Assembly (NCBI GenBank): GCA_002840435.1 | Contig: PHAT01000005.1 | Coordinates: 410,460-474,459, forward strand | DNA from: Deltaproteobacteria bacterium HGW-Deltaproteobacteria-6 | GTDB lineage: Bacteria > Desulfobacterota > Syntrophia > Syntrophales > Smithellaceae | Length of the DNA: 64,000 nt | Direction of reading: 5' to 3' | Shown: piece after piece, positions 45,339-59,388 of the stretch | How positions within the stretch are numbered: position 1 is the first letter of the stretch | Layout of the letters: every line of letters begins with the position of its first letter | Notes under the pieces: generated by a model | What the model was told of the DNA's origin: nothing | Database searches by the model: none | What the model saw: the letters and a program-made list of their open reading frames with translations, nothing else | Made by a program: the position numbers and the translations under genes

Positions 45339-47930
45339 CTATTTCCCAAAAAAACAAATCATCTTCTGTGTTACGATATCCGACAGCAGCCGCAGATCCT
45401 TATTTCTCACATCATATACTTTTACCACGCCGGCGAAGCGCGCATCGTCCGGCATCAGATCCGTCAGAATGTTGGGTTGCTTTTTCATCCATGCGCTGTT
45501 GAAAATAACGCCGTTTTGCTCGGGGTAGATCGCCATGTAAAAAATATCCATCTCCACCATGTCCTGAAAGAAATGCGTTCCAAAAGACAAGTCGGGAATC
45601 AAAGATCCGTCCTGATAGGCTATTTCGCCAATGGCGGTAATGTTGTTAATTTCCGAAAAAGTTACCGGAACACCCATTGCCGGGGTTGTGGTTCCCCATC
45701 GTCCCGGTCCCAGAAGAATTGACGGCATGACGTCGCGCCGTCCGATCTGCCGGTTGATTTTACCCACCAGCCGGGCCACTTCGTATTTTTCAGAAACAGA
45801 CAGTTTTGTGTAACCTTCCGGATCAATATAAATAATGCGGGAGATGGCCTGATAGATGCTGCCGCCCATGAAATTTGCTTCCTGTCGGATCAGGATCTTG
45901 GATCGGGACATCTTGTCCGGCAGCTGGACGCGGCTGTAATGGCCCTTGGTCTGGAAGGGACGGCACTGGAGCAGGTTGATCTGCAATTTACCCTTCGCGT
46001 TGATGTTGACCGTGAATTCAATATCCACAGGGTAGCGATAAACCTGCTCCAGCGTTCTCAGCAGCCGGGACATGTTTTTCGCAAAAGATGTGGAGGCCAG
46101 CAGTTGATCAAACGTGATCATCAGAGCGTCGCGGGTGTCTTTGCCTACCGAGCGCAGATAATCGGCGGCCTTGGTATCTTCTTCGACGATCAGATCCAGA
46201 CGCGGCACCAGGTCAAGCCTGAGCAGTTCCGTGGATTTGATGGTTTGAAATTCGTTGTCGCGCAGATTGAGCACATCCGTTTCATGCTGGGAGAACCGCT
46301 TGATGTCCTCCTGCTTGGCGTAAGGTTTGGTCAGCGGCGCATCCAGGGCGACAATGCGCGGATAGTCATTTTCCACGCGGTTCACGGCGCGCGTGCCCAG
46401 ACCGAAAACAATCCTGAGCATGCCGGCTTTCGGGTCCATGCCTTTCTGCCAGACAAAGGTATTATAGGACAGACCGACGCCCGCCACGCCGGGGAAGAAA
46501 TAAATGTCGCGGTGTGATCCGGACACGCGCTGCACCAGGAGTGCCATCTGCTCGTCTTGATGGGCCATGCCGCGTTGCAGGCGGTAGGTGAGGGCGTCCT
46601 CGTTCATGGTGGAGGCGAAAATTTTGCGGACGGCTTCTTCAAAAGCCCGGTAGCGTTCTTCGGGAGTTTCCTGGTTGACCAGGAAGTAACTTTCATATTT
46701 TCCGGCAAAGGCGTTGCCGAACGCGTCTTCCAGCAGAGAACTGGAACGGACGATAATCGGGGCCTGACCATAATATTCCAGCATGAGTTGGAACTGCTCC
46801 TTGATTTCGTCTGGAAAAACGCCATACAGCATTTTGCTTTTGAGTTCACGGGCGACTTCAAAGTAACCCTCGTCGGTCTTTTGCGACATGAGCAGTTTCC
46901 ACCAGCCGTTTTGCACCATGTAGGAATAGAAAATATCCGAACCGATATAAAAAGAATCATGTATTTCCAGTTCGGCATCCCAGTCAAAAGTCGGGTCTTT
47001 ACGCAGGATGTTGCGCGCCAGCAGCATGCCCACGGATTTGCCGCCGATAAACCCCGTCCCAATGAGGCGTTTTTTAATTTCCACCAGGTCTTCCAGAGAG
47101 AAGTATTCCTTCACCAGAGACAACATTCTTTTCTCGCGTCCGATCAACACATGCGAGAGGGTTTCCACCATATTCTGCTTTTCCTGCGTGGCTTCCGGGT
47201 CTTCCAGGATCGTGGTCGCTTTGAGGAAGATGCGGTCCCAGTAATCGAGATTACGGACGCTGCTGCTGGCGTTCTTGTTCGTCAGGTAAGATAAAGTGCT
47301 TGCGGCGTCTGCACTGTTTAAAATCGGGACAAATTTATCGTCTTCCATGACATGCGGCAAATACATGGTCGGTGTATAGCGTTTCCAGGCTTTGAGCGGA
47401 TGGACGCAGATTTTACCGTTGTTGTTATACACATCCAGCAGGACCTGCGTGGTTTCGCGAATCCGTGCCACAGTTTTGAAAGAGTGACGGCTTCTCAGAA
47501 TCGAGAAATATGCGACCGTGTTGAGCTCGAAAAGATAAGGGCAGGTTATAACGAAAAAATTGCCGATCATCAGATCCGTGGCCCAGGCCATCAGTAAATC
47601 GGACAGGCAGTCGAAGACATAAAAAACATCCCTTCCTTCATCCCGGACAATATTATGGACCTGCGTGGAAAATGATTCAAACCCTTTGTTGGCGTTGAGT
47701 TTATAAACTTTTATTTTTTTGTTTGATTCCAAAAGCGGCGGATGGTTGGCAAACCGCATATAGACAAGGCGTTGATTACGGGCCAGAGCTGTTTTCACAT
47801 AAGGATCAACGAATTTTTTGTAGTCTTCAATATCATCAACCTGAAGAACGACGTTGTCGCCCATTTGCAGATAGCTGAGTATTTCATCCAAGCCTTTTAT
47901 TCCTGTACTGACGCGGGTGTAAGGTGTCAT
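45339..47930 (-). CDS. PEP/pyruvate-binding (PPDK N-terminal-like) protein with a degenerate RecA-like N-terminus
   Basis: The start is set at 47930 (MTPYTRVSTGIKGLDEIL) after GAGGATAAAA; starts at 47948 and 48074 are in frame. The first 230 residues recall a KaiC/RadA-like domain (STGIKGLDEIL..L..GD) but lack a Walker A motif. The rest has GFIGGKSVGMLLARNIL, IIVRSSSLLEDAFGNAFAGKY and a PEP-synthase-like C-terminal block (ILLGPGRWGTTTPAMGVPVTF). The phospho-histidine domain and PEP barrel of PPDK are missing. The substrate is uncertain. It is divergent from amt, and the shared gap carries ACA-N4-TGT sites. Confidence 0.7.
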   Translation of the reverse strand: MTPYTRVSTGIKGLDEILSYLQMGDNVVLQVDDIEDYKKFVDPYVKTALARNQRLVYMRFANHPPLLESNKKIKVYKLNANKGFESFSTQVHNIVRDEGRDVFYVFDCLSDLLMAWATDLMIGNFFVITCPYLFELNTVAYFSILRSRHSFKTVARIRETTQVLLDVYNNNGKICVHPLKAWKRYTPTMYLPHVMEDDKFVPILNSADAASTLSYLTNKNASSSVRNLDYWDRIFLKATTILEDPEATQEKQNMVETLSHVLIGREKRMLSLVKEYFSLEDLVEIKKRLIGTGFIGGKSVGMLLARNILRKDPTFDWDAELEIHDSFYIGSDIFYSYMVQNGWWKLLMSQKTDEGYFEVARELKSKMLYGVFPDEIKEQFQLMLEYYGQAPIIVRSSSLLEDAFGNAFAGKYESYFLVNQETPEERYRAFEEAVRKIFASTMNEDALTYRLQRGMAHQDEQMALLVQRVSGSHRDIYFFPGVAGVGLSYNTFVWQKGMDPKAGMLRIVFGLGTRAVNRVENDYPRIVALDAPLTKPYAKQEDIKRFSQHETDVLNLRDNEFQTIKSTELLRLDLVPRLDLIVEEDTKAADYLRSVGKDTRDALMITFDQLLASTSFAKNMSRLLRTLEQVYRYPVDIEFTVNINAKGKLQINLLQCRPFQTKGHYSRVQLPDKMSRSKILIRQEANFMGGSIYQAISRIIYIDPEGYTKLSVSEKYEVARLVGKINRQIGRRDVMPSILLGPGRWGTTTPAMGVPVTFSEINNITAIGEIAYQDGSLIPDLSFGTHFFQDMVEMDIFYMAIYPEQNGVIFNSAWMKKQPNILTDLMPDDARFAGVVKVYDVRNKDLRLLSDIVTQKMICFFGK

Positions 47931-47963
47931 AATTTTTTTTATCCTCATCCAATAATTTGTGTA

Positions 47964-47973
47964 ACAAATTTGT
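47964..47973. promoter_or_regulatory. ACA-N4-TGT site 1 (upstream of the PEP-binding gene)
   Basis: The site reads TAACA-AATT-TGTAC, 34 bases upstream of the start codon at 47930. It is one of the repeated dyads of the nitrogen region. Confidence 0.45.
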
Positions 47974-48241
47974 ACGCTGTAAATTGGTTCATATGGTTCT
48001 GAAAGATCATGGCGCAAAAAGAGGTTATTCTTAAAATAATAGTGATTATTACTATTTATAAAATTAATTTTCAACCGATAACGGCTATCTCTATTTTATT
48101 GAAAAGCATTGAAAGCTTCTTTTCCGATTATTGTATCAATTTTTATGCCAGAAACATTTTTGTGTTTCAACTTTGTCCAAAATCATTTTTTTGCAAAAAT
48201 TGAGGTATCTGACCGGCGGATTTTGATGATTCCACTCACAA

Positions 48242-48251
48242 CCAATATTGT
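48242..48251. promoter_or_regulatory. Near-match ACA-N4-TGT site 2 (upstream of amt1)
   Basis: The site reads CCA-ATAT-TGT, with one mismatch in the first ACA. It has the same CAATATTG core as the 56552 site. Confidence 0.3.
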
Positions 48252-48327
48252 ATGATTTTGCCATGCCGTCTTCGGGTGTCCTGTTTAATATTTTCTGACA
48301 TATTAGTTTTTCCATCTGCGATTTGGT

Positions 48328-48337
48328 ACATATTTGT
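48328..48337. promoter_or_regulatory. ACA-N4-TGT site 3 (upstream of amt1)
   Basis: The site reads GTACA-TATT-TGTAC, a perfect dyad in the outer arms. Its centre lies about 100 bases upstream of the predicted start from the sigma-54 promoter at 48408, a normal activator distance. Confidence 0.55.
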
Positions 48338-48407
48338 ACGTTTTTAATCTGTGAAATAATGGCTTAATGTTCATTGTATTCAGCTATTTGTGAGCATTGC
48401 CGTCTTC

Positions 48408-48422
48408 TGGCATCATCCTTGC
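48408..48422 (+). promoter_or_regulatory. Sigma-54 promoter of amt1
   Basis: TGGCATCATCCTTGC has GG at -24 and GC at -12 with exactly 10 bases between, and TTGC at the -12 side. It lies 44 bases upstream of the amt1 start codon. Confidence 0.75.
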
Positions 48423-48466
48423 GCTAAGAAAAGGCGCGAAACAAAAACTTTTCGAAGGAGGTATTG

Positions 48467-49702
48467 ATGATGAATTCGGGAGATACAGCATGGGTTTTGA
48501 TGGCCAGCGCTCTGGTCCTGCTTATGACGATTCCGGGGCTGGCATTTTTTTACGGAGGCCTGGTCAGGCGCAAGAACGTTCTGTCTATTTTGATGCAGTG
48601 CTTTATTATCGTTTGCGTTATCAGCCTGCAGTGGGTGCTGTTCGGCTATTCTCTGGCATTCGGGCCGGATTTCCACGGCATCATCGGCAATCTGGATTGG
48701 GCGGGACTCAATGGCGTGGGCGCTATCCCCAACAAGGATTACGCGGCAACCATTCCTCATTCAGTTTTTATGATCTTTCAGGCCATGTTTGCCATCATTA
48801 CACCGGCCCTGATCATCGGCGCTTATGCGGAAAGAGTGAAGTTTCCCGCTTTCCTGCTTTTTACGCTGCTCTGGGCGACGTTTGTCTACGATCCTCTGGC
48901 CCACTGGGTCTGGGGAACGGGCGGCTGGCTGAAGGCCATGGGCGGACTGGATTTTGCCGGCGGCATCGTCGTGCATGTGAGTTCCGGCATATCGGCTCTG
49001 GTCCTGGCGTTATTACTCGGCAAACGGGTTGGTTATAACCACAAACCCATTCGCCCGCATAACCTGCCTTTCACCGTTCTGGGCGCGGCTCTTTTATGGT
49101 TCGGCTGGTTCGGATTCAATGCCGGCAGCGCACTGGCAGCGGACGGTCTTGCCGCCAATGCCTTTGTGACCACCAATACGGCAACAGCGGCTGCCGGTTT
49201 GGCCTGGGCACTGATTGAATGGTGGCACAATGGGACACCGACCATTCTGGGGACGGCTACCGGCGCTGTCGCGGGCCTTGTGGCCATCACACCCGCCTGC
49301 GGTTTTGTAAACCCGATGAATGCCATGTTCATGGGCATCATCGTCGCCCTGGTCTGCTATACGGCCGTCGCCGTGATTAAAGGCAAGCTCGGCTACGATG
49401 ACTCTCTCGATGCATTCGGCGTGCATGGCGTCGGCGGAACTGTCGGCACGATCCTCACAGGGGTCTTCGCGCAGAAAGCAATGAATGCAGCGGGCGCGGA
49501 CGGGCTGCTCTTCGGCAATGTTCATCAATTCCTGGTGCAATGCCTGATGCTGGTCGTGACGATCGCCTTTGCCGCGATCATGACCTTTATCATCTTCAAG
49601 ATTGTGGATGCGACAATCGGCATGAGGGTTGAAGAGAAGCATGAAATCGTCGGTCTGGATCTGACCCAACAAAGTGAAGCGGCTTACACCGTGATTGAAT
49701 AG
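48467..49702 (+). CDS. amt: Ammonium transporter Amt (first copy)
   Basis: The ATG at 48467 follows GGAGG. The 411-residue protein has the Amt motif set: PGLAFFYGGLVRRKNVLSILMQ, AMFAIITPALIIGAYAERVKFPAFLLF, the pore histidine in HVSSGISAL and another in FGVHGVGGTVGTIL. It moves ammonium across the cytoplasmic membrane and is gated by PII. It is followed by glnB 12 bases downstream and begins a run amt-glnB-HTH-porin. Confidence 0.95.
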   Translation: MMNSGDTAWVLMASALVLLMTIPGLAFFYGGLVRRKNVLSILMQCFIIVCVISLQWVLFGYSLAFGPDFHGIIGNLDWAGLNGVGAIPNKDYAATIPHSVFMIFQAMFAIITPALIIGAYAERVKFPAFLLFTLLWATFVYDPLAHWVWGTGGWLKAMGGLDFAGGIVVHVSSGISALVLALLLGKRVGYNHKPIRPHNLPFTVLGAALLWFGWFGFNAGSALAADGLAANAFVTTNTATAAAGLAWALIEWWHNGTPTILGTATGAVAGLVAITPACGFVNPMNAMFMGIIVALVCYTAVAVIKGKLGYDDSLDAFGVHGVGGTVGTILTGVFAQKAMNAAGADGLLFGNVHQFLVQCLMLVVTIAFAAIMTFIIFKIVDATIGMRVEEKHEIVGLDLTQQSEAAYTVIE

Positions 49703-49714
49703 GAGGAATAAATC

Positions 49715-50056
49715 ATGAAATTAGTCATCGCCATCATTCAGCCCCACAAACTGGAGGCCGTCAAGAAAGAGTTGGAAGCCGTCGAAGTGAACTTAATGAC
49801 CGTTGCCAACGTCCTGGGGCAGGGACGGCAAAAGGGCGTCACCGAAATTTACCGCGGCGCCAAGGAAGCAGGCGGCCTGCTCAATAAAGTAAGACTGGAT
49901 ATTGCCGTCAATGAAGACTTTGTCCAGCCCACGATTGACGCCATTGTCAAGGGCGCCCACACGGGGTCGGTGGGTGACGGCAAGATCTTTATCGTAGAAC
50001 TGGCCGAGTGCATCCGGATCAGCTCCGGCGAACGGGGCGGCTGCGCCATTGGTTGA
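49715..50056 (+). CDS. glnB: PII nitrogen regulator (GlnB/GlnK type), no Tyr51
   Basis: This 113-residue protein has the PII fold (IIQPHKLEAVKKEL..VEVNLMTV) and the C-terminal ATP site GDGKIFIVELAECIRISSGERGG with Arg101/103 equivalents. In the T-loop the uridylylation tyrosine (51) is Glu, while Tyr46 is kept. So it should not be uridylylated like the E. coli proteins. It lies directly downstream of amt and probably controls the transporter by binding. Confidence 0.95.
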   Translation: MKLVIAIIQPHKLEAVKKELEAVEVNLMTVANVLGQGRQKGVTEIYRGAKEAGGLLNKVRLDIAVNEDFVQPTIDAIVKGAHTGSVGDGKIFIVELAECIRISSGERGGCAIG

Positions 50057-50066
50057 GGTCCGCGTG

Positions 50067-50264
50067 ATGGACAGCGACAAAACATCTGTAAAAGAAAATG
50101 CGTTGGAGCGATGCGTTTCCGACTGTGAAAGAGCCGTCATCATTCATGCGCTGAGAAGAACAAACGGCGACAAGTCGAATGCCGCACGAATTCTGGGAAC
50201 AACAAAGCGCGTTTTGGCGGGTAAGATCCATAAATATGAGATCGATTGTACGCAATTCGAATAA
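50067..50264 (+). CDS. Free-standing Fis-type helix-turn-helix protein
   Basis: The ATG at 50067 follows GAGG at 8 bases; an upstream TTG (50049) would overlap glnB. The 65-residue protein has CERAVIIHALRRTNGDKSNAARILGTTKRVLAGKIHKYEID. This is a Fis/NifA-type DNA-binding helix-turn-helix and has no AAA+ or other domain. Its GDKSNAARILGTTKR stretch closely parallels the C-terminus of the NifA-type regulator at 57506 ([15 protein letters not shown]). It may bind the same sites. Its function is unknown. Confidence 0.8.
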   Translation: MDSDKTSVKENALERCVSDCERAVIIHALRRTNGDKSNAARILGTTKRVLAGKIHKYEIDCTQFE

Positions 50265-50292
50265 GAATAAATCATAAGGAGAAATAAAAACA

Positions 50293-51168
50293 ATGAAAAG
50301 AAACCTCAAAGCAATAACAGCAACGGTTTTGCTGGCAATGTTCCTGGTATCATCTCCGCTGACGGCCCGGGCGGCGGAAGAACCCAAACCGGCAGAGAAA
50401 AAACAGGAAGAAGCAAAGGTGACAGGCGAGGTCGCAGCCAGTGTCTTAAGCGCCTATATCTGGAGAGGTCAGGAAATGACGCGCCACAGTGCGGTGATTC
50501 AACCTGCTCTAACGGCAAGCTATAAGGATTTTACCGCTAATATCTGGGGTAACCTGGATACCAGTCCCTACGGCGCAGCGGGTCAAAACTATTCGTCTCA
50601 GCATACGGAAACGGATATTACCCTTTCCTATTCGCGAAAGTTCGGCATAGTGCAGGCAGGCGCCGGATACATTTACTATGCCCTGGCCGCTCCTTATTCG
50701 GGGGCCACGGACCCGCTTGATTCTCAGGAAATATTTGTCTCTCTGGGTCTGGATACGATTCTGGCGCCCACACTGACGGTTTACAAGGAAATCGATCATT
50801 ATCATCAGTGGTATGTGCTGCTTGGAGTTTCCCACACGTTTGCCCTGCATGAGAAGATCGGGTTGAAACTGGCGGCAACCGCAAGCTATCTGAAAAGCGA
50901 AGATGCGGCAACGTACGCGAAATATGATGGTGATTCATTGGCAACGGCGGAAAAGTTCAACAACTTTCATGACGCGACGGTCTCGGTTTCTCTGCCGGTT
51001 GCGGTGGCTAAGCATATCACGATCACGCCGCTTGTGACTTACGTTTTTCCGCTGTCCAACGATGCAAAATATGAGATGAAAGCCCGCGGACTGCAGGGTG
51101 TGTCCGCCCCGTCCGACAGGGGTAGTTCATTCCTGTACGGCGGAATAACATTAAGTTTCGCATTTTAA
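50293..51168 (+). CDS. Outer-membrane beta-barrel (porin-like) protein
   Basis: This 291-residue protein has a signal peptide cut near TARAAEE, a short Lys/Glu linker, and alternating beta strands. It ends in aromatic FLYGGITLSFAF, typical of an outer-membrane barrel. AYIWRGQEM near the start and the length suggest a TorF-like porin family. It lies 28 bases after the HTH gene in the amt-glnB run, so it may admit ammonium or small nitrogen compounds. Confidence 0.75.
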   Translation: MKRNLKAITATVLLAMFLVSSPLTARAAEEPKPAEKKQEEAKVTGEVAASVLSAYIWRGQEMTRHSAVIQPALTASYKDFTANIWGNLDTSPYGAAGQNYSSQHTETDITLSYSRKFGIVQAGAGYIYYALAAPYSGATDPLDSQEIFVSLGLDTILAPTLTVYKEIDHYHQWYVLLGVSHTFALHEKIGLKLAATASYLKSEDAATYAKYDGDSLATAEKFNNFHDATVSVSLPVAVAKHITITPLVTYVFPLSNDAKYEMKARGLQGVSAPSDRGSSFLYGGITLSFAF

Positions 51169-51183
51169 GAGTTGATGTTCCGG

Positions 51184-51223
51184 AGCCGCTGCAGTTTATC
51201 AGGAAGAAATTGCAGCGGCTTTT
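51184..51223 (+). terminator. Terminator after the porin gene
   Basis: A 14-bp stem (51184-51197 with 51207-51220, one G-U pair, core AGCCGCTGCA) is followed by TTTTC, 16 bases after the porin stop. The following stretch to 51449 shows no gene. Confidence 0.85.
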
Positions 51224-51449
51224 CTCGCTTTGATTAAAATACAGTCCCTGACCCGGGGAAGAAAGCGTTGGCTTGTATAAAACAAAAATTGACGAATGGC
51301 GTCCGGCTGCTGAAGTCATCGGAATTGCGGTTTATCGGCCAAGTCATGCGGATGATCGGCAATTTTGTCCGGCAGAAGCAGGAATGATTTGATCGTTGCT
51401 TTTGCCGTTTTGTGAATTTGCCGGATTCTTATGTTTTGAGGAGATTCAA

Positions 51450-52700
51450 TTGACAAATGATCATTTCAACCTCTCACTTTCGATGCTGAAAGATATTATT
51501 TCAGAAGAAAAAATCTTTGTCGAATTCCAATCAATTTTGTCAGCGCGCAATCATTTGATCGTCGGGACCGAGGGTTTAATTCGGGGTAAAACAGAAGAGG
51601 GGATGATGATTCCGCCAATGGTCCTGTTTGATGCCGCCCGGGATTATGGTTTGACTCTGGAGCTGGACCGCCTCTGCCGGGAGAAAGTTTTAGCCGGTTT
51701 CAGCGGCGTTCATTGCGTCCAGCATAACCGTCTGCTGTTTCTTAATCTCGAAACGTCTTTTATATCCTCCAGGATCGTAGGATCGGGATACCTCCTTGAT
51801 CAGGTTGCGAGACATGGCATTCCTCCTGCCAATATTGTCATAGAAATCGTGGAATCGAAGACGGAAGATGACAAATCTCTGCTGCAATTTGTCAATGCCT
51901 ACCGTGCCTGCGGCTTCAATATTGCTCTTGATGATGTGGGAACGGGCCACTCCAATTTTGACCGGATATCCCGACTCAGGCCAAATATCATCAAGGTTGA
52001 CCGGTCCATCATCAGTGGAATGGCGACAAACTATTTTAAGCAGGAAATATTTAAATCCCTGTCCAACTTATCCAAAAACATCGGCTGCCTTACTCTGTCG
52101 GAAGGTGTGGAAACGCAGGAAGAAGTCCTCTGCAGTATTGAATACGGCGCCGATCTGTTGCAGGGATATTTTTTCTCCCGGCCAAAGCACATCAATCGTG
52201 ATGAGTCGAAGGAGGAAGAGCGAAAACTTGAGGATCTTCTGATGATGTTCAAGATGAAGCAGATTGATTTCGTGAGGACGAGACGAATTCAAAATCAACA
52301 GTACCACAAGACGGTCCGGAGGCTCATCAGAAAAATACAGGGAAAATCGCTTGAGGAGGTGAATGCCCTGCTCCGGAGTTTCATAAATGAGTCAGACACC
52401 ATTGATGCGCTTTATATTACCGACTATGAAGGCATCCAGATAACGGATACCGTCATGAAAACAAATGATCGTAAAATCATCAATCCGGTTTTTCGGGCAA
52501 CAAACAAAAATGAGAACCTGTCGCACAAGGACTACGTGTATCAATTGATCAATACGGATATCAGCCATTATACGACGGACCGCTATATATCATTTGCCAC
52601 GGGCAATCATTGCGTGACCTTGAGTCGTTCATTCAAAGGCGATCAAAACCGCCCTTGCATATTATGTACGGATTTTCTGGTTCGTGACACGAATAAGTAA
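51450..52700 (+). CDS. EAL-domain c-di-GMP phosphodiesterase with C-terminal sensor-like domain
   Basis: The TTG at 51450 follows GGAGAT. The 416-residue protein has an EAL domain with EGLIRG in place of EALxR, NLETSF, VIEIVES, DDVGTGHSNFDRI, KVDRS and EGVETQEE, so the metal and general-base residues appear kept. A C-terminal PAS/Cache-like domain (DALYITDYEGIQITDTV ... YISFATGNHCVTLSRSFKG) follows, as in the YkuI-type EAL proteins. There is no membrane segment. The next gene carries a similar C-terminal domain. Confidence 0.85.
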   Translation: MTNDHFNLSLSMLKDIISEEKIFVEFQSILSARNHLIVGTEGLIRGKTEEGMMIPPMVLFDAARDYGLTLELDRLCREKVLAGFSGVHCVQHNRLLFLNLETSFISSRIVGSGYLLDQVARHGIPPANIVIEIVESKTEDDKSLLQFVNAYRACGFNIALDDVGTGHSNFDRISRLRPNIIKVDRSIISGMATNYFKQEIFKSLSNLSKNIGCLTLSEGVETQEEVLCSIEYGADLLQGYFFSRPKHINRDESKEEERKLEDLLMMFKMKQIDFVRTRRIQNQQYHKTVRRLIRKIQGKSLEEVNALLRSFINESDTIDALYITDYEGIQITDTVMKTNDRKIINPVFRATNKNENLSHKDYVYQLINTDISHYTTDRYISFATGNHCVTLSRSFKGDQNRPCILCTDFLVRDTNK

Positions 52701-52772
52701 TGAATATTTCTTGCTGCTTACAACCGGCAGAATCGCTTTTTCCATAAAGAACTTGCAAAGGAGGGAAAATTT

Positions 52773-53909
52773 ATGAAGCGATGGAATGAACTATTTGTTA
52801 AGGTAATTCCAGAGGGGAAAATAAATACAATGATGCCCGGTCCTGAAACTTCAACACAAAGGATGAGCATGCCTTGCGGACGGAGGAAATCGTTGCAGCG
52901 CTTGGACAATATTGCCGTGGCAGGATTGCAGTTGGCGTCTTTAGGGCCGCAATTGGCGGGTTTGGCTGCTGAAATGGAAAAACATGCGCGATGTCAGGCA
53001 GAACAAGCTGCCGTTATATCCGGAGTTATGGGGAGATTTACCAACGATCTCAATGATGCCGTGTTGCAATTGCGCGCTTCGTCGGGGGATGTGGCCAATG
53101 CGCTGGGCACGGTTTCACGCATCGCACAACATACCCGGATTATTTCCATCAATGCCAGTATTGAAGCCGCAAGAGCCGGCGAACATGGCCGTGCCTTCGG
53201 TGTCGTTGTGGATGAGGTGCAACGTCTTGCAAACAGGACCGGCAATACGACGGATGCTATTACGGATTGTATTCACGGCATGCAACAGAGCATCATGCAG
53301 GTTGCTGTTGTCGCAGGCAGCGATATAGCGGCGGGCGAGATAAAGAAGAATACAGTTGATGCCGTTAACTGTCAGATACAGGGTATGGTGCATTCTGTGA
53401 ATGAGCAACTGGGCAGTGCCGAATGTCTTCAGCTTCTCGGCGATCAAATTAATGGACATACCGAACGCCTTATTCTCGATTTAGGAACCTTTCGTTTCGC
53501 CGCTCACGAGCGGGCGGAAAACGAAGTAGCCCGAATGCTTCCCTTTCTTGATGCACATATCGGAGAGCGGCAGTATTGCGAAAAACTTTTCGAGAGGTGG
53601 TTGGGCGAATGCCCTTCATTTGAATTGTTATATATCACCGATGGCCGAGGCCGCCAGTATGTTGATAACATAACCTCACGAGACGGCAAGGTAATGCACG
53701 ATCCGGCAGGCTATGACCGGGATTGGTCCAGGCGGCCCTGGTATCTGGATGCCATTCACAATAATGAAATTCACTCCACCGACATTTACCGTTCGACAGC
53801 AACAGGAGACTTTTGTTTTACGGTTGCCTATGCATTTCGTGATGCCCGGAAAAACGTTCGTGGAGTGGTCGGAGCAGATGTTAATTTTAAGAGGCTGATT
53901 GAGCATTAG
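52773..53909 (+). CDS. Cytoplasmic methyl-accepting chemotaxis-type protein with C-terminal sensor-like domain
   Basis: This 378-residue protein starts after AAAGGAGGG. The signalling tip (residues about 110-170) reads RIAQHTRIISINASIEAARAGEHGRAFGVVVDEVQRLA, a divergent form of the usual QTNLLALNAAIEAARAGE. The C-terminal 110 residues are a Cache-like fold (LLYITDGRGRQYVDNI ... YDRDWSRRPWYLDAI ... GVVGADVNFKRL). There is no membrane helix. It resembles the preceding EAL gene in having an intracellular sensor-like end. Confidence 0.85.
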   Translation: MKRWNELFVKVIPEGKINTMMPGPETSTQRMSMPCGRRKSLQRLDNIAVAGLQLASLGPQLAGLAAEMEKHARCQAEQAAVISGVMGRFTNDLNDAVLQLRASSGDVANALGTVSRIAQHTRIISINASIEAARAGEHGRAFGVVVDEVQRLANRTGNTTDAITDCIHGMQQSIMQVAVVAGSDIAAGEIKKNTVDAVNCQIQGMVHSVNEQLGSAECLQLLGDQINGHTERLILDLGTFRFAAHERAENEVARMLPFLDAHIGERQYCEKLFERWLGECPSFELLYITDGRGRQYVDNITSRDGKVMHDPAGYDRDWSRRPWYLDAIHNNEIHSTDIYRSTATGDFCFTVAYAFRDARKNVRGVVGADVNFKRLIEH

Positions 53910-53965
53910 CTGATAATTTGGTTAATATTAAAACATAAAATATGAATTTGAAGGGGAAAGGGCAT

Positions 53966-54655
53966 ATGCGCGCACACTATTTACAGCACGTTCCGTTTGA
54001 AGGTCTTGGCAGCATCGAACCCTGGCTGAAAGCGGCCGGGTGCGAAATAACCCGTACCAGGTTTTTTGAATCAACCAGACTCCCTGATCTGGAAAAGATA
54101 GACCTGCTTGTGGTGATGGGCGGTCCAATGAGTGTCAATGATGAAGTCGCATTTCCCTGGCTCGTTTCCGAAAAACGATTCATTCGCGAAGCCATCGGCT
54201 CGGGAAAGGCGGTTCTGGGCATTTGTCTTGGCGCGCAGTTGATCGCCAGCGCGGCAGGAGCCCGCGTATACAGAAATAACGTGAAAGAAATCGGATGGTT
54301 TCCAATTTACGGGATGCTATCAGATGACGCGTCTTTTTTTAGTTTTCCGCAGTCCATAAACGTTTTCCATTGGCATGGGGACACATTTGATTTGCCTTCG
54401 GGAGCGACGCGGCTGGCGAAAAGCGACGGATGCACCAACCAGGCATTTCAACTCGGCAGATCGGTTATCGGGTTGCAGTTTCATCTGGAAACCACACCCA
54501 AAGCGTTACAGGAAATAGTTTTTAACGGTCGAGATGAATTGATACCTGCGCAGTATATACAGACGAAAGAGGAAATCCTGTCAGCCAAACCCGATGAATA
54601 TACATCAATAAATCACCTGATGGACAATGTCCTCACTTTTCTGAGCAGAACGTGA
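53966..54655 (+). CDS. Class I glutamine amidotransferase-like protein
   Basis: The ATG at 53966 follows AAGGGG; an upstream ATG (53942) has no ribosome site. This 229-residue protein has VVMGGPMSVND, the nucleophile in VLGICLGAQLIAS and the catalytic His-Glu in GLQFHLETT. It resembles GMP-synthase-like stand-alone GATases. Its synthase partner is unknown. Confidence 0.85.
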   Translation: MRAHYLQHVPFEGLGSIEPWLKAAGCEITRTRFFESTRLPDLEKIDLLVVMGGPMSVNDEVAFPWLVSEKRFIREAIGSGKAVLGICLGAQLIASAAGARVYRNNVKEIGWFPIYGMLSDDASFFSFPQSINVFHWHGDTFDLPSGATRLAKSDGCTNQAFQLGRSVIGLQFHLETTPKALQEIVFNGRDELIPAQYIQTKEEILSAKPDEYTSINHLMDNVLTFLSRT

Positions 54656-54658
54656 TGA

Positions 54659-55036
54659 TTACTCTTTCCTCTTTTCATCAATATCACCGGGATACATCAT
54701 GGCTGACGGACCCTGCTCGCGCGTGCGGACGCGGATGACATCCTCAACAGGCGTAACAAAGATAATACCGTCGCCCGTTTCGCCCGTATAAGCCGATTTG
54801 AGAATTGCCTCCAGCGCTGCATCCAGGTTGCGTTTGTTCAAAACGATGTTCATCTGGATTTTGGGAAGCATGTTGACCTGATAGGTTCCGGCGCGTCCGA
54901 CCAGTTGAACGCCTCCCTGGCGGCCATGGCCCCGCACTTCAAACGTGTTCATGCCCACAATTCCTATTTCCCTGAGGGCGTCGATAACATCGTTTACTTT
55001 ATCTTCGCGAATGATCGCTTCGATCTTTTTCAGCAT
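54659..55036 (-). CDS. glnB: PII nitrogen regulator (second copy), with Tyr51 equivalent
   Basis: This 125-residue protein has the PII fold, with GHGRQGGVQLVGRAGTYQV in the T-loop. The Tyr in TYQV aligns with Tyr51 of E. coli PII, unlike the other two copies in this window. The C-terminal site GDGIIFVTPVEDVIRVRTRE is complete. It follows amt2 on the minus strand with a 56-base gap. The extra C-terminal tail (MMYPGDIDEKRKE) is unusual. Confidence 0.93.
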   Translation of the reverse strand: MLKKIEAIIREDKVNDVIDALREIGIVGMNTFEVRGHGRQGGVQLVGRAGTYQVNMLPKIQMNIVLNKRNLDAALEAILKSAYTGETGDGIIFVTPVEDVIRVRTREQGPSAMMYPGDIDEKRKE

Positions 55037-55092
55037 GGTAAAATCTCCAATTAAAATTCAATACAGACCAGGCCGCGCATAGAATCCGCAGC

Positions 55093-56319
55093 CTATGAAT
55101 ATGATCTTTCTCCGTGTGAACTGATATCCAGCCCCACTTCTTCTTCAATCGGGGTGACCCGCAATCCGATGCTCACATGAAGCACCTTGGCAAGCACATA
55201 GGTCACCGAGAAGGAAAAAACGATGGTGACAATCACGGCGATGAGCTGAATGCCGAGCTGGGCGGGGTTGCCGAAAAACAAACCATTGGCTCCGTCGGCG
55301 TTGACGGCCACGGTGGCGAATAATCCCGTGGCAATGGTGCCCCAGGTGCTGGCCATGCCGTGGCACGCCCAGACATCCAGGGATTCATCCAGCTTGCGTT
55401 GATCCCGGAAACGCATCGCATAATAGGAAAGGGGCGCGGCTACCGCTCCGATCAGCATGGCAGTCAAAGGCGTGATGTAACCGCAGGCGGGCGTCACCGC
55501 TGCCAGACCGACCACCATGCCTGTCGCAATTCCCAGGGTGCTTGGTCTGCCGTCCAACCAGGAAAGCAGCATCCAGACCAGGCCGGCGGTGGCCGCGGAG
55601 GTATTGGTCGTCACCAGAGCGTTTACCGCCACACCGTTTGCGCCAAGGGCGCTGCCTGCATTAAAGCCGAACCAGCCGACCCACAGCAATCCGGTTCCCA
55701 GGACCGTCAGCGGAATATTGTTCGGCTCCATCGAAACATTGCCATGGCCTTTGCGCGGACCGATGACCAGGGCAAACGCCAAAGCCGAAAAACCCGCGGC
55801 GATATGCACAACCGTCCCGCCGGCAAAATCGAGGACGCCCATTTCCTTGAGCCACCCTCCCTGCCCCCAGACCCAGTGGCAGAGAGGATCATAGACCAGC
55901 GTTGCCCAGAGCAGGCTGAACAGCAGGAAGCTCTTGAATTTTACTCGCTCCACAAAGGCGCCCGTAATTAACGCAGGCGTAATGACGGCAAACATCATCT
56001 GAAAGGAGGCAAAAAGTTCATGAGGGATGGTCTTGGCGTAAGCCGCATTCGGCTGGGCTCCGACCCCCTGAAAGCCCAGGAAATCCAGCCCTCCGATCAA
56101 TCCGCCGATGGTCGGGCCGAAGGACAGAGAATAGCCGTAAAGCACCCACTGAACGCCGATCAGAGACATGAAAACATAGCTCAAAGTTAAAGTCGAAAGA
56201 ACATTTTTTCTTCTGACCATACCGCCATAAAAAAACGCCAGAGCCGGCGTCATCAAAAGAACAAGAGAACAACACACTAAAATCCAGGCTGTGTCACCCG
56301 CGCTGATTTGAACACCCAT
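55093..56319 (-). CDS. amt: Ammonium transporter Amt (second copy)
   Basis: The start is set at 56319 (MGVQISAGDTAW), preceded by GGGAGG at about 11 bases. An in-frame codon at 56367 would lie inside the sigma-54 promoter at 56364-56378. The 408-residue protein has TPALAFFYGGMVRRKNVLS, AVITPALITGAFVERVKFKSFLLF, the pore histidine in HIAAGFSAL and another in CHGMASTWGTIATG. It is cotranscribed with glnB2. PII proteins probably gate it. Confidence 0.94.
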   Translation of the reverse strand: MGVQISAGDTAWILVCCSLVLLMTPALAFFYGGMVRRKNVLSTLTLSYVFMSLIGVQWVLYGYSLSFGPTIGGLIGGLDFLGFQGVGAQPNAAYAKTIPHELFASFQMMFAVITPALITGAFVERVKFKSFLLFSLLWATLVYDPLCHWVWGQGGWLKEMGVLDFAGGTVVHIAAGFSALAFALVIGPRKGHGNVSMEPNNIPLTVLGTGLLWVGWFGFNAGSALGANGVAVNALVTTNTSAATAGLVWMLLSWLDGRPSTLGIATGMVVGLAAVTPACGYITPLTAMLIGAVAAPLSYYAMRFRDQRKLDESLDVWACHGMASTWGTIATGLFATVAVNADGANGLFFGNPAQLGIQLIAVIVTIVFSFSVTYVLAKVLHVSIGLRVTPIEEEVGLDISSHGERSYS

Positions 56320-56363
56320 TATATTTATATTCCTCCCATTTAGAGATAAGATCCTACACAAGA

Positions 56364-56378
56364 GCAATTACCCTGCCA
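56364..56378 (-). promoter_or_regulatory. Sigma-54 promoter of amt2
   Basis: On the minus strand the sequence is TGGCAGGGTAATTGC, with GG and GC separated by 10 bases. It lies 45 bases upstream of the amt2 start at 56319. Confidence 0.75.
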
Positions 56379-56465
56379 TAATATAATAGCTATTAAATAC
56401 AAATTGTTACGTGAGTTATCGGCAAACGGAAGATTGCATATTTGTGCAGCTTGATGAATTGTGGA

Positions 56466-56475
56466 ACATAATTGT
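56466..56475. promoter_or_regulatory. ACA-N4-TGT site 4 (between amt2 and glnB3)
   Basis: The site reads GAACA-TAAT-TGTAG. Its centre is about 120 bases upstream of the amt2 start of transcription (minus strand). A related sequence, TGCATATTTGTGCA, lies at 56435-56448. Confidence 0.5.
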
Positions 56476-56551
56476 AGCTATTTATGAAGTCCTGACATTA
56501 GAAACAAGAGCATGATTTGCCACATTTTAGTTTGTTATTTCAGCAAATAAT

Positions 56552-56561
56552 ACAATATTGT
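56552..56561. promoter_or_regulatory. ACA-N4-TGT site 5 (upstream of the third PII gene)
   Basis: The site reads TACA-ATAT-TGTCC. Its centre lies about 100 bases upstream of the start predicted from the 56632 promoter, the same distance as site 3 from the amt1 promoter. Confidence 0.55.
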
Positions 56562-56631
56562 CCAAAGCCGCTTCCCCATTTATTCTTGAATACATCTGTA
56601 ATTACAGCAACTAATCAAAAATTCGCAGGGT

Positions 56632-56647
56632 CGGCACTATCCTTGCA
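56632..56647 (+). promoter_or_regulatory. Sigma-54 promoter of the third PII gene
   Basis: CGGCACTATCCTTGCA matches the sigma-54 consensus in GGCAC and TTGCA with the correct 10-base gap between GG and GC. It lies 117 bases before the start codon at 56764. Confidence 0.75.
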
Positions 56648-56763
56648 AAAAAACAGACGAGGTATGAGAGTATGTTTGAGAAATGCAGCCTCAGTTTTGA
56701 CCGCGATGGCGTTGGTCATTTGATGAGAAGATCGAGATTGTGATGGAGCGGACGGACTAAACT

Positions 56764-57048
56764 ATGAAATTTATCACCGCTATTATCCAACCGCACAGGC
56801 TGGACGCTGTTAAAAAGGAACTGGAGACCGTGGAAGTGAATCTGATGACGGTTACCAGCATCGCGAGGTCCGGACGGCAAAAAAACGTTATGGAGATCTG
56901 CCGTGGCGCAGGCAGATCAAGCGGTTTGCTGAACAAAATCCGGCTCGACATAACCATAAACGAAGGCTCTGTCGAGCCGGCGATTGAAGCCATTGTCAAA
57001 GGCGCCCATATCGATGCCACAGGTGAAGACAGGATATTTGTCGTCTAG
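56764..57048 (+). CDS. Truncated PII-like protein (third copy)
   Basis: The protein begins MKFITAIIQPHRLDAVKKELETVEVNLMTVTSI and is clearly PII over residues 1-94. It ends at VV after GEDRIF, about 18 residues short of the family. The C-terminal region that carries Arg101 and Arg103 for ATP binding is missing, Lys90 is Arg, Tyr46 is Cys and Tyr51 is Arg. The next bases after the stop do not resemble the lost end. Base pattern and the intact sigma-54 promoter argue that it is expressed. Confidence 0.8.
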   Translation: MKFITAIIQPHRLDAVKKELETVEVNLMTVTSIARSGRQKNVMEICRGAGRSSGLLNKIRLDITINEGSVEPAIEAIVKGAHIDATGEDRIFVV

Positions 57049-57165
57049 CTCATTATGATTGCGAAAAGGTGGATTAAAAAGCAATGAAAAACTAATCGGC
57101 ACCATCCTCTGATGATAACATCTCTATTATAGAGTCATCAATCCATCCGTGTTTAGTTTCTGTAC

Positions 57166-57239
57166 TGAGGGGTCGTCTAAAGGTAGGACAACAGGTTCTG
57201 GCCCTGTGAATTGAGGTTCGAGTCCTTGCCCCTCAGCCA
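57166..57239 (+). tRNA. tRNA-Gln (anticodon CUG)
   Basis: The 74-base cloverleaf includes the encoded CCA. The acceptor stem is TGAGGGG with CCCCTCA (7 bp), the D stem is GTCT with GGAC, the anticodon stem is ACAGG with CCTGT enclosing TTCTGGC (anticodon CTG), and the T stem is TGAGG with CCTTG around TTCGAGT. The last stem uses two G-U pairs. It sits between the third PII gene and the NifA-type regulator. It reads the codon CAG. Confidence 0.92.
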
Positions 57240-57357
57240 TATATCCCGTATAACCGGCTTCATTATCAATAATACTTTATTGCTTTCCCTCATACCGTGA
57301 GATGCCAATTCTGCGGACAGTGTTTCTGTCCGGTGAAGAAAAGCTGTGCATTTTTTT

Positions 57358-57367
57358 ACAATGTTGT
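57358..57367. promoter_or_regulatory. ACA-N4-TGT site 6 (upstream of the NifA-type regulator)
   Basis: The site reads TTACA-ATGT-TGTTCC, 8 bases before a possible sigma-54 -24 element. Such a position suggests autoregulation. Confidence 0.45.
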
Positions 57368-57374
57368 TCCAAAC

Positions 57375-57389
57375 TGGTTTGATATTTGC
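57375..57389 (+). promoter_or_regulatory. Possible sigma-54 promoter of the NifA-type regulator
   Basis: TGGTTTGATATTTGC has GG and GC spaced by 10 bases and a TTGC end, but the CAC part of the consensus is missing. It lies 117 bases upstream of the start. Confidence 0.4.
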
Positions 57390-57430
57390 GTATGTATGGC
57401 CAGAAGAACAAAATAATGATTGTCATTAGA

Positions 57431-57440
57431 ACAATTTTGT
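57431..57440. promoter_or_regulatory. ACA-N4-TGT site 7 (NifA-type regulator leader)
   Basis: The site reads GAACA-ATTT-TGTTCC, the most symmetric copy (GAACAATTTTGTTC). It lies 66 bases before the start codon, downstream of the possible promoter. Confidence 0.5.
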
Positions 57441-57505
57441 TCCATAATGACGGTAAAGATAGTCAGGCATAAAGATTAACCAACTCCATCCGAGGAAACG
57501 ACAAC

Positions 57506-59038
57506 GTGAGTATTCACAGTTACGAAGAATTAGCGACCCTGCACGCTATTGCGAAAATTCTGGCACAGCCGGGAGATTTACGGGATCAGCTTGAGCAGGT
57601 TCTCAACGAAATGAGCTCCCGTCTGGGAATGCAGCGCGGTATGATTTCGCTTCTGGATCGCGATAAAAAAGAAGCATGGCTGGATATTGCCCACGACGTA
57701 AACATCGATGGTCTCGAAGTCACCTATAAACCGGGGGAGGGCATAACGGGTAAAGTGGCGGAAACCGGCCGTCCGATGGCTGTGGCCAATCTCGGGCAGG
57801 AAACGCACTTTCTGGATCGCACGGGCGCCCGCCGTCATCTGAACCGCGCCGAACTGTCTTTTTTATGTGTTCCGATTATGTATGACGCGCGTGTTGTCGG
57901 CGTTTTGTCCGCAGATAAGATTGCCCAGCAGGTGGAAAATCTGGACAAGGAACTGGCGATGCTTTCCGCGGTGGCTGAACTGATGGCCAAAGCCGTGCAT
58001 ATCCGCGCGCTGGAGGAAGAAAACAAACGCCTGCGTAAGATTGTCGGCTCCGAGCGCGCGCCGTCAATGGAGATTATCGGCCATTCCAAAGCCATTCAGG
58101 AAGTCTTCGGTCTGGTGGCGCAAGTGGCCGATTCCAATACCACGGTGCTGATTACGGGAGAGACCGGCACGGGGAAGGAACTGATCGCCCGGGCCATTCA
58201 TAAAAATTCTCCGCGTCATGGCGGACCGCTGGTGCAGGTCAACTGCGCGGCCATCCCTGATACGCTTATTGAAAGTGAATTGTTCGGCCATGAAAAAGGG
58301 GCATTCACCGGTGCGCTGCAGACAAGGCGGGGACGTTTTGAAGAAGCCAACGGCGGCACGATCTTTCTGGATGAAGTGGGAGAGCTCTCCGCCGCCGCTC
58401 AGGTCAAACTCTTGCGCGTGTTGCAGGAAAAGAGATTTCAACCGCTGGGGTCTTCAAGGGTTATCAACGTTAATGTGAGAATTATTGCGGCAACGAACAG
58501 AAATCTGGAGCAGGATATTTTATCCGACCGTTTTCGCGCGGATCTGTTCTACCGTCTGAACGTTTTCCCCATTTATTTGCCGCCCTTGCGCGAGCGGGGC
58601 AGTGACGTGATTCTCCTGGCCGACCATTTTCTGCTGAAGTACAATAAAGAAATGGGCAAAAACGTTAAAAGGATATCCACCGCGGCCATTGAAGTTTTCT
58701 TATCCCACAAATGGCCGGGGAATGTCCGCGAGCTGGAAAACTGCATGGAACGGGCGGTGTTGCTGACCAAGACGGATCTTGTGGACTGCATCCACTTGCC
58801 GCCGTCTCTGCAAATCAAGGAAAAGATAACGGACCGCAAGGATCGGAGCAAGCTCTCTTCGGTCGTCGAAGCGCAGGAGCGGTCGCTGATCATCAATGCG
58901 CTGGAGGAAGCGGGCGGCAATCAGACCAAGGCGGCTAAAATGCTGGGCACGACCAAGCGCATTATCCAGTACAAAATATCGAAAATGGGCATTGACCCGA
59001 AGCATTTCCGCAAAATAGATAAAGATTCCGGTCAATGA
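57506..59038 (+). CDS. NifA-type sigma-54-dependent transcriptional activator
   Basis: This 510-residue protein starts with GTG after GAGGAAA. It has a GAF domain (about 20-165), then an AAA+ domain with Walker [12 protein letters not shown], the sigma-54 loop GAFTGA in [11 protein letters not shown], Walker [11 protein letters not shown] and [12 protein letters not shown]. The C-terminal HTH ([25 protein letters not shown]) is of NifA/Fis type. The interdomain cysteine pair of oxygen-sensing NifA proteins is missing. No nif genes are in the window, while five sigma-54 type promoters are near ammonium and glutamate synthase genes. So its targets may be nitrogen assimilation rather than nitrogenase. 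Name nifA is plausible but not proved. Confidence 0.9.
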
Positions 59039-59106
59039 TCAACGTTTTTGTCCGATTTGTATTCAACGCTGTGACGTTCGCGGGAGGAGTGGTGGACGGA
59101 ATTAGT

Positions 59107-59116
59107 ACAAAAATGT
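59107..59116. promoter_or_regulatory. ACA-N4-TGT site 8 (upstream of gltB1)
   Basis: The site reads GTACA-AAAA-TGTTTC. It lies about 280 bases upstream of the 59389 promoter. Confidence 0.45.
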
Positions 59117-59135
59117 TTCACATTTAATGAAAATA

Positions 59136-59145
59136 ACAAAAATGT
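59136..59145. promoter_or_regulatory. ACA-N4-TGT site 9 (upstream of gltB1)
   Basis: The site reads TAACA-AAAA-TGTTCT, 29 bases from site 8, close to three helical turns. Confidence 0.45.
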
Positions 59146-59388
59146 TCTTTTTTATTAACTGATGCCGGATGCTTTCAATAACCAGAGTAGCTGTTACCTG
59201 ATTTTTTCAGGCCAGATGCGTTCAGAACCGGGCGGGTAACGGGTGACAAGGGGCTTAAGTAACTAGCCGACAATACGGCGGATGTTTGCCATGGTTATTG
59301 CTTGGCGGGGATGGCAGGGTAAAGAGGCAGAACCCGGGTAAGATAAAAATGTATGGTAAGGGATGCAATATTGTTTGCCGGCCGGCTA

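Follow-up and report, generated by a model that had tools for sequence, protein, structure and literature searches.

A free-standing NifA-type DNA-binding domain encoded behind amt and glnB, a possible feedback modulator of a NifA-like regulon

Results

A solo NifA-type domain in the amt1-glnB row

Analysis of a 64-kb stretch of the genome of Deltaproteobacteria bacterium HGW-Deltaproteobacteria-6 (the window, meaning the whole 64,000 nucleotides analysed) revealed a gene, here called solo, whose 65-residue product is a NifA-type DNA-binding domain standing alone, and which directly follows amt1 and glnB. Our leading, though tentative, reading is that this protein acts as a feedback modulator of a NifA-like regulon, at NifA-type enhancers. 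The gene row and its promoter element comprise the following features:

48408 to 48422, forward strand: sigma-54 -24/-12 element TGGCATCATCCTTGC of the amt1 operon, an exact pattern match
48464 to 49702, forward strand: amt1, ammonium transporter, first gene in the row (PF00909, TIGR00836)
49715 to 50056, forward strand: glnB1/glnK, P-II protein, ending 10 bp 5' of solo (PF00543)
50067 to 50264, forward strand: solo, NifA-type Fis/HTH_8 domain protein of 65 amino acids, ATG start (ORF listing, Pfam, AlphaFold2)
50293 to 51168, forward strand: porin-like protein, the label 'porin' being given from its sequence

The only Pfam match above its curated cut-off in the solo protein was HTH_8 (PF02954, Fis family; residues 19-57, 37.2 bits against a cut-off of 22), and the search of all 65 residues detected neither the AAA+ sigma-54 interaction domain (PF00158) nor a sensor domain, in agreement with the initial annotation of the product as a Fis-type helix-turn-helix (HTH) alone. 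Sigma-54 activators, or bacterial enhancer-binding proteins (EBPs), consist of sensor, ATPase and DNA-binding parts; solo falls outside their definition, for which an AAA+ domain is required. Against the NCBIfam NifA equivalog model (TIGR01817) it scored 18.8 bits, below the cut-off of 528.85. The AlphaFold2 model (mean pLDDT 88.5, six sequences) contains helices at residues 2-31, 36-43, 47-56 and 61-64, namely a long first helix with a low-confidence start, the pair that forms the HTH and a short one at the end. Foldseek matched this model to Fis, the domain 2m8g, NtrC1 (4l5e) and NtrC4 bound to DNA (4fth); the E-values are weak, 0.07 at best, as usually happens with such short chains. Cysteines C16 and C20 in the long helix and C61 after the HTH are kept in most solos of family-level groups f1 and f5; they are not conserved in other solos or NifA-like domains.

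Among 12 orthologues, many pairs of which are saturated, the solo of the window gave dN/dS values of 0.15, 0.15 and 0.17 against those of genomes G014, G016 and G017, respectively; all close pairs (these three, G014-G017 and G016-G017) fell within 0.13-0.17, and three pairs were higher, at 0.41-0.57 (G024-G030, G024-G032 and G030-G032). Since dN/dS is near 0.15 in close orthologues and the neighbours are conserved, solo is more than a chance ORF, and these substitution rates indicate a real gene under purifying selection.

The genes amt1, glnB, solo and the porin-like gene lie on the same strand with gaps of 12, 10 and 28 bp, and therefore likely form a single transcript. The listed start of amt1 is TTG, with ATG codons at 48467 and 48470 preceded by AAGGAGG. 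The porin-like product had no Pfam or NCBIfam match up to an E-value of 0.01. As for the promoter, the sigma-54 pattern with at most one mismatch occurs 16 times in the window against 11.8 expected, and the TGGCA and TTGC blocks of the amt1 element are invariant in all eight aligned amt1 upstream regions. The placement of solo directly after glnB and downstream of this element, already pointed out in the initial annotation, was confirmed by the 10-bp gap and the position of the element.

The NifA-like regulator and its surroundings

At a distance of 7.2 kb from solo lies a complete activator, close to further amt and glnB-type genes:

57506 to 59038, forward strand: NifA-like sigma-54 activator (GAF, AAA+, HTH_8), of the family to which solo is kin (Pfam, NCBIfam, tree)
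56632 to 56646, forward strand: sigma-54-like element CGGCACTATCCTTGC before the glnB-type ORF 56764-57048, one mismatch to the pattern

The regulator scored 510.2 bits against the NCBIfam NifA model, under the cut-off of 528.85, and no nifH match above its own cut-off was found in the whole genome; for these two reasons it is called NifA-like here and not NifA proper, and by the same signs it probably serves nitrogen assimilation rather than nitrogen fixation. The earlier mention of a full NifA-type regulator 7 kb away thus holds for the GAF-AAA+-HTH architecture but not for the NifA cut-off, which is missed. An amt2-glnB2 pair runs divergently, and a further pair carries the labels glxB-gltB, assigned in this analysis. 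The glnB-type ORF 56764-57048 (forward strand) encodes 94 amino acids, against 113 in related copies (L051, L127), and stops after RIFVV, so that the usual end is missing. A tRNA-Gln (CTG) gene (57166-57239, forward strand) stands between this short ORF and the nifA-like gene.

Kinship with NifA-like domains and the recognition helix

A tree of 89 domains over 51 columns, in which few forks are well supported, united solos and NifA-like C-termini in one group apart from other EBP domains (SH-aLRT 92). The own genome contributed 17 of its 28 further HTH_8 domains, the short fragment G120 was left out, and these 17 domains, Fis, Nlh2 and ZraR all fell outside the group. The f1 and f5 solos formed one group and the f10, f14 and f20 solos another (support 83 each), while the solos adjacent to nifA-like genes formed a group of their own (94) inside the NifA-like part of the tree; a single clade of all solos was not rejected (p-AU 0.41) against several independent origins. 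A recent duplication of the nearby nifA-like gene was rejected as its origin, solo being closer to the solos of other genera (66% to those of G024 and G020) than to the NifA-like domain of its own genome (43%). The comparison with EBP C-termini therefore makes solo kin to the NifA-type DNA-binding domain, and the initial description of a truncated copy of an activator is right in kind, although the tree and these percentages reveal a separately evolving family and not a recent copy. Nor does solo belong to the Fis nucleoid proteins, Fis lying outside the group and solo having a single long helix before the HTH. The own genome encodes a second free-standing HTH_8 protein of 101 amino acids (G000:C6:71266-71424; L067:9129-9434), possibly a Fis-like protein of a lineage other than that of solo.

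The recognition region of solo, AARILGTTKR, parallels the corresponding stretch of the regulator, as had been noted initially, with TKR identical at helix positions 3-5, and LGTTKR occurs only in these two proteins among the 30 HTH_8 places of the own genome. The tail I-D-x-x-x-F and the motif LGT[TS] are common to most solos and NifA-like domains. Comparison of 25 NifA-like domains with 44 solos showed R at position 5 in 25/25 and 40/44, K at position 4 in 22/25 (K or R in 34/44 solos) and Y at position 9 in 23/25 and 34/44, respectively. Position 8, by contrast, is Q in 22 of the 25 NifA-like domains and in 0 of the 44 solos, and position 12 is H or R in 38 of the 44 solos. From position 6, the solo of the window reads V, L, A, G where the regulator reads I, I, Q, Y; having Gly rather than Tyr at position 9 is a trait of its subgroup. 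Divergence of DNA-contacting residues, named at the outset as a sign against shared sites, is accordingly found in part, positions 3-5 agreeing and positions 8 (Q to A) and 9 (Y to G) differing. In the solos of G075-G077 the helix is altogether changed, and the promoter palindrome described below is retained. In LuxO, residues taken to match positions 8 and 9 matter, according to the available text of the report (PMC11407668), and the available part of another regulon study describes similar DNA-binding domains as going with similar sites (PMC6615313).

Distribution and gene neighbours

A solo gene was found in at least 37 of the 155 genomes of the order (Syntrophales), a lower bound assembled by hand from matches and neighbourhoods, and these genomes span seven family-level groups (f1, f5, f6, f10, f14, f16 and f20). 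The amt-glnB-HTH order, which was to be sought in other genomes, recurs there: a glnB-type gene immediately precedes solo in 33 of the 37 listed solo genomes, some of these glnB genes being truncated where a contig stops. The four exceptions are G006, where solo stands in another context near neither amt nor glnB, and G095, G096 and G098. In five of the 37, all of one group (G057, G096, G097, G098 and G099), a solo comes directly after the nifA-like gene and ahead of the glxB-gltB pair; in G095 it precedes the glxB-gltB pair, with the nifA-like gene on another contig. A close NifA-like gene is present in 35 of the 37 listed solo genomes versus 59 of the 118 without a detected solo, a comparison among related and hence not independent genomes. 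A porin-like gene follows solo in 17 of the 20 listed f1 solo genomes and in G154, G150, G151, G134 and G126; none was found behind solo in the f1 genomes G006, G010 and G072, and the f6 solos had no porin-like match nearby. Within its own genus solo is patchy (at least seven of the 20 members searched), and G013, of the same genus, has amt1-glnB-porin without solo and with a 49-bp junction.

In G073 and G072 (L098:4028-5404, L101:83-2681) a response-regulator-type EBP is followed by a further solo, which in G073 precedes a porin-like gene; the idea of a split activator, in which an EBP without HTH would precede solo, was rejected, the upstream EBP having its own HTH-like end in both genomes. 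In G030 (L057:5412-9877) a second, diverged NifA-like protein with the helix LGLTERIMSLRV heads a gene row of glnB, another Amt type, glnB, a solo with TTNR in place of TTKR, and a porin-like gene. Outside the order, a search of 394 genomes of the phylum (377 of them non-order) listed three matches in frames shorter than 250 amino acids, down to an E-value of about 5e-18, so that weaker solos may be missed: that of G504 proved to be a broken nifA-like gene and was rejected as a solo, and the other two are G442:C6 and G265:C180.

Candidate activator sites

A palindrome with the core ACA-N4-TGT marks candidate activator sites, none assigned to a strand, at several places in the window:

48326 to 48339: palindrome GTACATATTTGTAC, starting 82 bp before the amt1 sigma-54 element
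56464 to 56477: candidate activator site upstream of the divergent amt2-glnB2 pair
56550 to 56563: candidate activator site, starting 82 bp before the sigma-54-like element 56632-56646
57356 to 57369: candidate activator site upstream of the nifA-like gene
57429 to 57442: candidate activator site GAACAATTTTGTTC upstream of the nifA-like gene
59105 to 59147: two candidate sites, 29 bp apart (59105 and 59134), upstream of the glxB-gltB pair

The sites before the nifA-like gene make autoregulation possible. Under one filter the whole window holds 17 palindrome sites, nine of them within 47962-59134; two of those nine fall within listed ORFs, 51125 in that of the porin-like gene and 47962 in the 5' part of ORF 45339-48074. 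The longer form GTACA-N4-TGTAC with up to two mismatches occurs 20 times in the window against 9.49 expected, a count reached by one of 100 shuffles. The classical NifA site TGT-N10-ACA was discarded as a candidate, being not enriched in the window (13 against 9.07 expected). Over the whole own genome the bare palindrome is hardly enriched (19 places versus 13 for the control).

Spacing to the sigma-54 element was counted for the 20 amt promoters, out of 30, in which the pattern matched no farther than 130 bp from the start. The palindrome starts 81, 82, 91 or 92 bp before the element, two distances one helical turn apart, in 15 of these 20 amt1 promoters, against a background of 0.64% of positions; the palindrome had been defined partly on promoters later counted, and the four offsets were picked after inspection of the data. 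The five promoters without a site at these offsets are those of G032, G134, G126, G099 and G097. Ten promoters were left out of the count (G072, G154, G128, G150, G151, G146, G067, G068, G024 and G030). A 500-bp scan of seven of them located a sigma-54 element in G072, G128 and G067, with sites at 82, 94 and 93 bp, respectively; in G154, G150, G151 and G146 the pattern detected no sigma-54 element over 500 bp, and palindromes are present. The solo operons of G024, G030 and G068 showed no sigma-54 element within 1.5 kb and no phased palindrome. Palindrome-like pairs 29 bp apart were also seen upstream of amt1 in G150:C25, G146:C11, G154:C64 and G151:C134, one site of the pair being weak in G154 and G151.

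A genome-wide search for the palindrome and a sigma-54 element at 55-85 bp, counted by pattern alone and including some poor spacers, returned 113 matches in 46 of the 59 relatives, and its reversed control 19 matches in 16 of the 59. The palindrome is present in G013, which lacks solo, and in G075-G077. Because G013 retains it, the palindrome does not need solo; its persistence there and where the solo helix has changed suggests that it is the site of the NifA-like activator, and speaks to that activator rather than to binding by solo. Inspection of the amt1 upstream regions by eye brought out no element that tracks the presence of solo. A scan for IHF-like sites, run without a control, gave scores of 7 to 9 out of 9.

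Discussion

In the mechanism proposed, the NifA-like activator would probably switch on the amt1-glnB-solo-porin operon through the palindrome 48326-48339, and solo would accumulate once the operon is fully on. Dimerising on DNA, it would then bind the ACA-N4-TGT enhancers that the activator would use, or close relatives of them, at amt1, amt2/glnB, the nifA-like gene and glxB-gltB, and, having no AAA+ domain, would lower the occupancy by the activator. We infer the single transcript, the role of the palindrome as activator site, the binding of solo there and the negative net effect. The competition with the NifA-like activator at the palindrome, raised in the initial annotation, is plausible. 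Available text on an isolated NifA domain that lacks helix A describes it as a monomer with weak site binding at 20 uM, and says that such domains, when they have no separate helix A, do not dimerise in the absence of DNA (PMC10590331); by analogy, solo probably binds DNA weakly and dimerises only on it. Since the isolated NifA domain is a weak binder, solo would have to be abundant to compete, and its position behind amt and glnB could supply it plentifully.

Points that speak for the feedback modulator are the kinship with NifA-like domains, the shared LGTTKR, the co-occurrence in 35 of the 37 genomes, the adjacency to glnB or nifA-like genes and the phased palindromes. Against it stand the change at position 8, the changed helix in G075-G077, the independence of the palindrome from solo in G013, the seven solo operons without a sigma-54 element by pattern (G024, G030, G068, G154, G150, G151 and G146), the G006 solo away from amt and glnB, the slight genome-wide enrichment of the bare palindrome and the weakness of the isolated NifA domain.

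The main rival, less likely yet of real weight, is that solo has a related but different DNA target of its own and is a local regulator of the porin-like gene, the amt operon or others, its specificity having shifted through the changes at helix positions 8 and 12. The differences from NifA are indeed consistent (no solo has Q at position 8, and 38/44 have H or R at position 12), G072 and G073 carry several solos each, the helix is changed in G075-G077, and solo and the porin-like gene stay joined beside another Amt type in G024, G030 and G068. A local target is harder to reconcile with positions 5 (R, 40/44) and 9 (Y, 34/44), which are mostly as in NifA, with the lack by eye of an amt1 upstream element tracking solo, and with the same palindrome in the solo-less G013. 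Rather improbable is an action on the NifA-like protein itself, with which solo would pair, in solution or at the palindrome, to give mixed dimers. Dimers are the working form of Fis-type domains, solo is related to the activator domain, and TrlR, a TraR-like protein, blocks TraR via inactive mixed dimers according to the available text (PMC3907764); the solo model, however, has no separate helix A, the part said to dimerise such domains without DNA (available text of PMC10590331), and the N-terminal helix sequences differ between solos and NifA. A positive role as an architectural protein, bending promoter DNA in the manner of Fis and aiding sigma-54 activation, would fit the resemblance of the fold to Fis and NtrC-type domains, an NtrC ancestry being ascribed to Fis (Morett and Bork, 1998, in the part available), but is improbable, given that solos are not grouped with Fis, that the solo-less G013 has the same promoter layout and that the own genome has a separate Fis-like protein of 101 amino acids. 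Finally, a decaying gene remnant or chance ORF, to which the patchy occurrence in the genus and the clean absence from G013 could point, is scarcely credible beside a dN/dS near 0.15 in close pairs, an order conserved over seven family-level groups and a confident fold.

The fold and the parent domain of solo are already well known, and the free-standing kind of protein has precedents in Fis and NinH, as the truncated inhibitor has in TrlR. Like solo, the C-terminal domain of Gluconacetobacter diazotrophicus NifA is a Fis-type HTH without a separate helix A, but in the available account it belongs to a complete activator, from which it was excised in the laboratory (PMC10590331), whereas solo has its own gene downstream of amt and glnB and differs at position 8. 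Fis of Escherichia coli and NinH of phage lambda are described in the available text as small free-standing DNA-binding proteins and have the same HTH (PMC7166090); Fis has 98 residues in solved chains, against 65 in solo, and a longer N-terminal part, and solo, unlike Fis, groups with NifA-like domains and sits among nitrogen genes. TrlR, a truncated homologue blocking the full regulator TraR, lacks the DNA-binding domain, as far as the available text goes (PMC3907764), while solo is that domain alone and its inhibitory effect is putative. In Herbaspirillum, nlmA-glnK-amtB likewise brings together genes for a membrane-associated protein, P-II and Amt, induced under nitrogen limitation, in a different order and with no HTH gene mentioned in the available part of the report (PMC3023670). 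No description of a solo NifA-type domain in amt-glnB operons was found in the openly licensed literature (titles and abstract openings).

More doubtful than the modulator role itself is the wider view that the bacteria of this order built a brake from their own activator, the NifA-like DNA-binding end being freed as a separate gene, placed after glnB and in one family after the nifA-like gene too, and the output of a P-II operon fed back onto the enhancers that drive it. Solo might then be a bacterial counterpart of microProteins and, after Fis, a further case of a sigma-54 activator domain gone independent. The mapped palindrome and its spacing make the competition idea directly testable. 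If true, a DNA-binding part alone beside a P-II sensor or an activator would be a simple limiter of a strong switch and would illustrate a route to Fis-like proteins.
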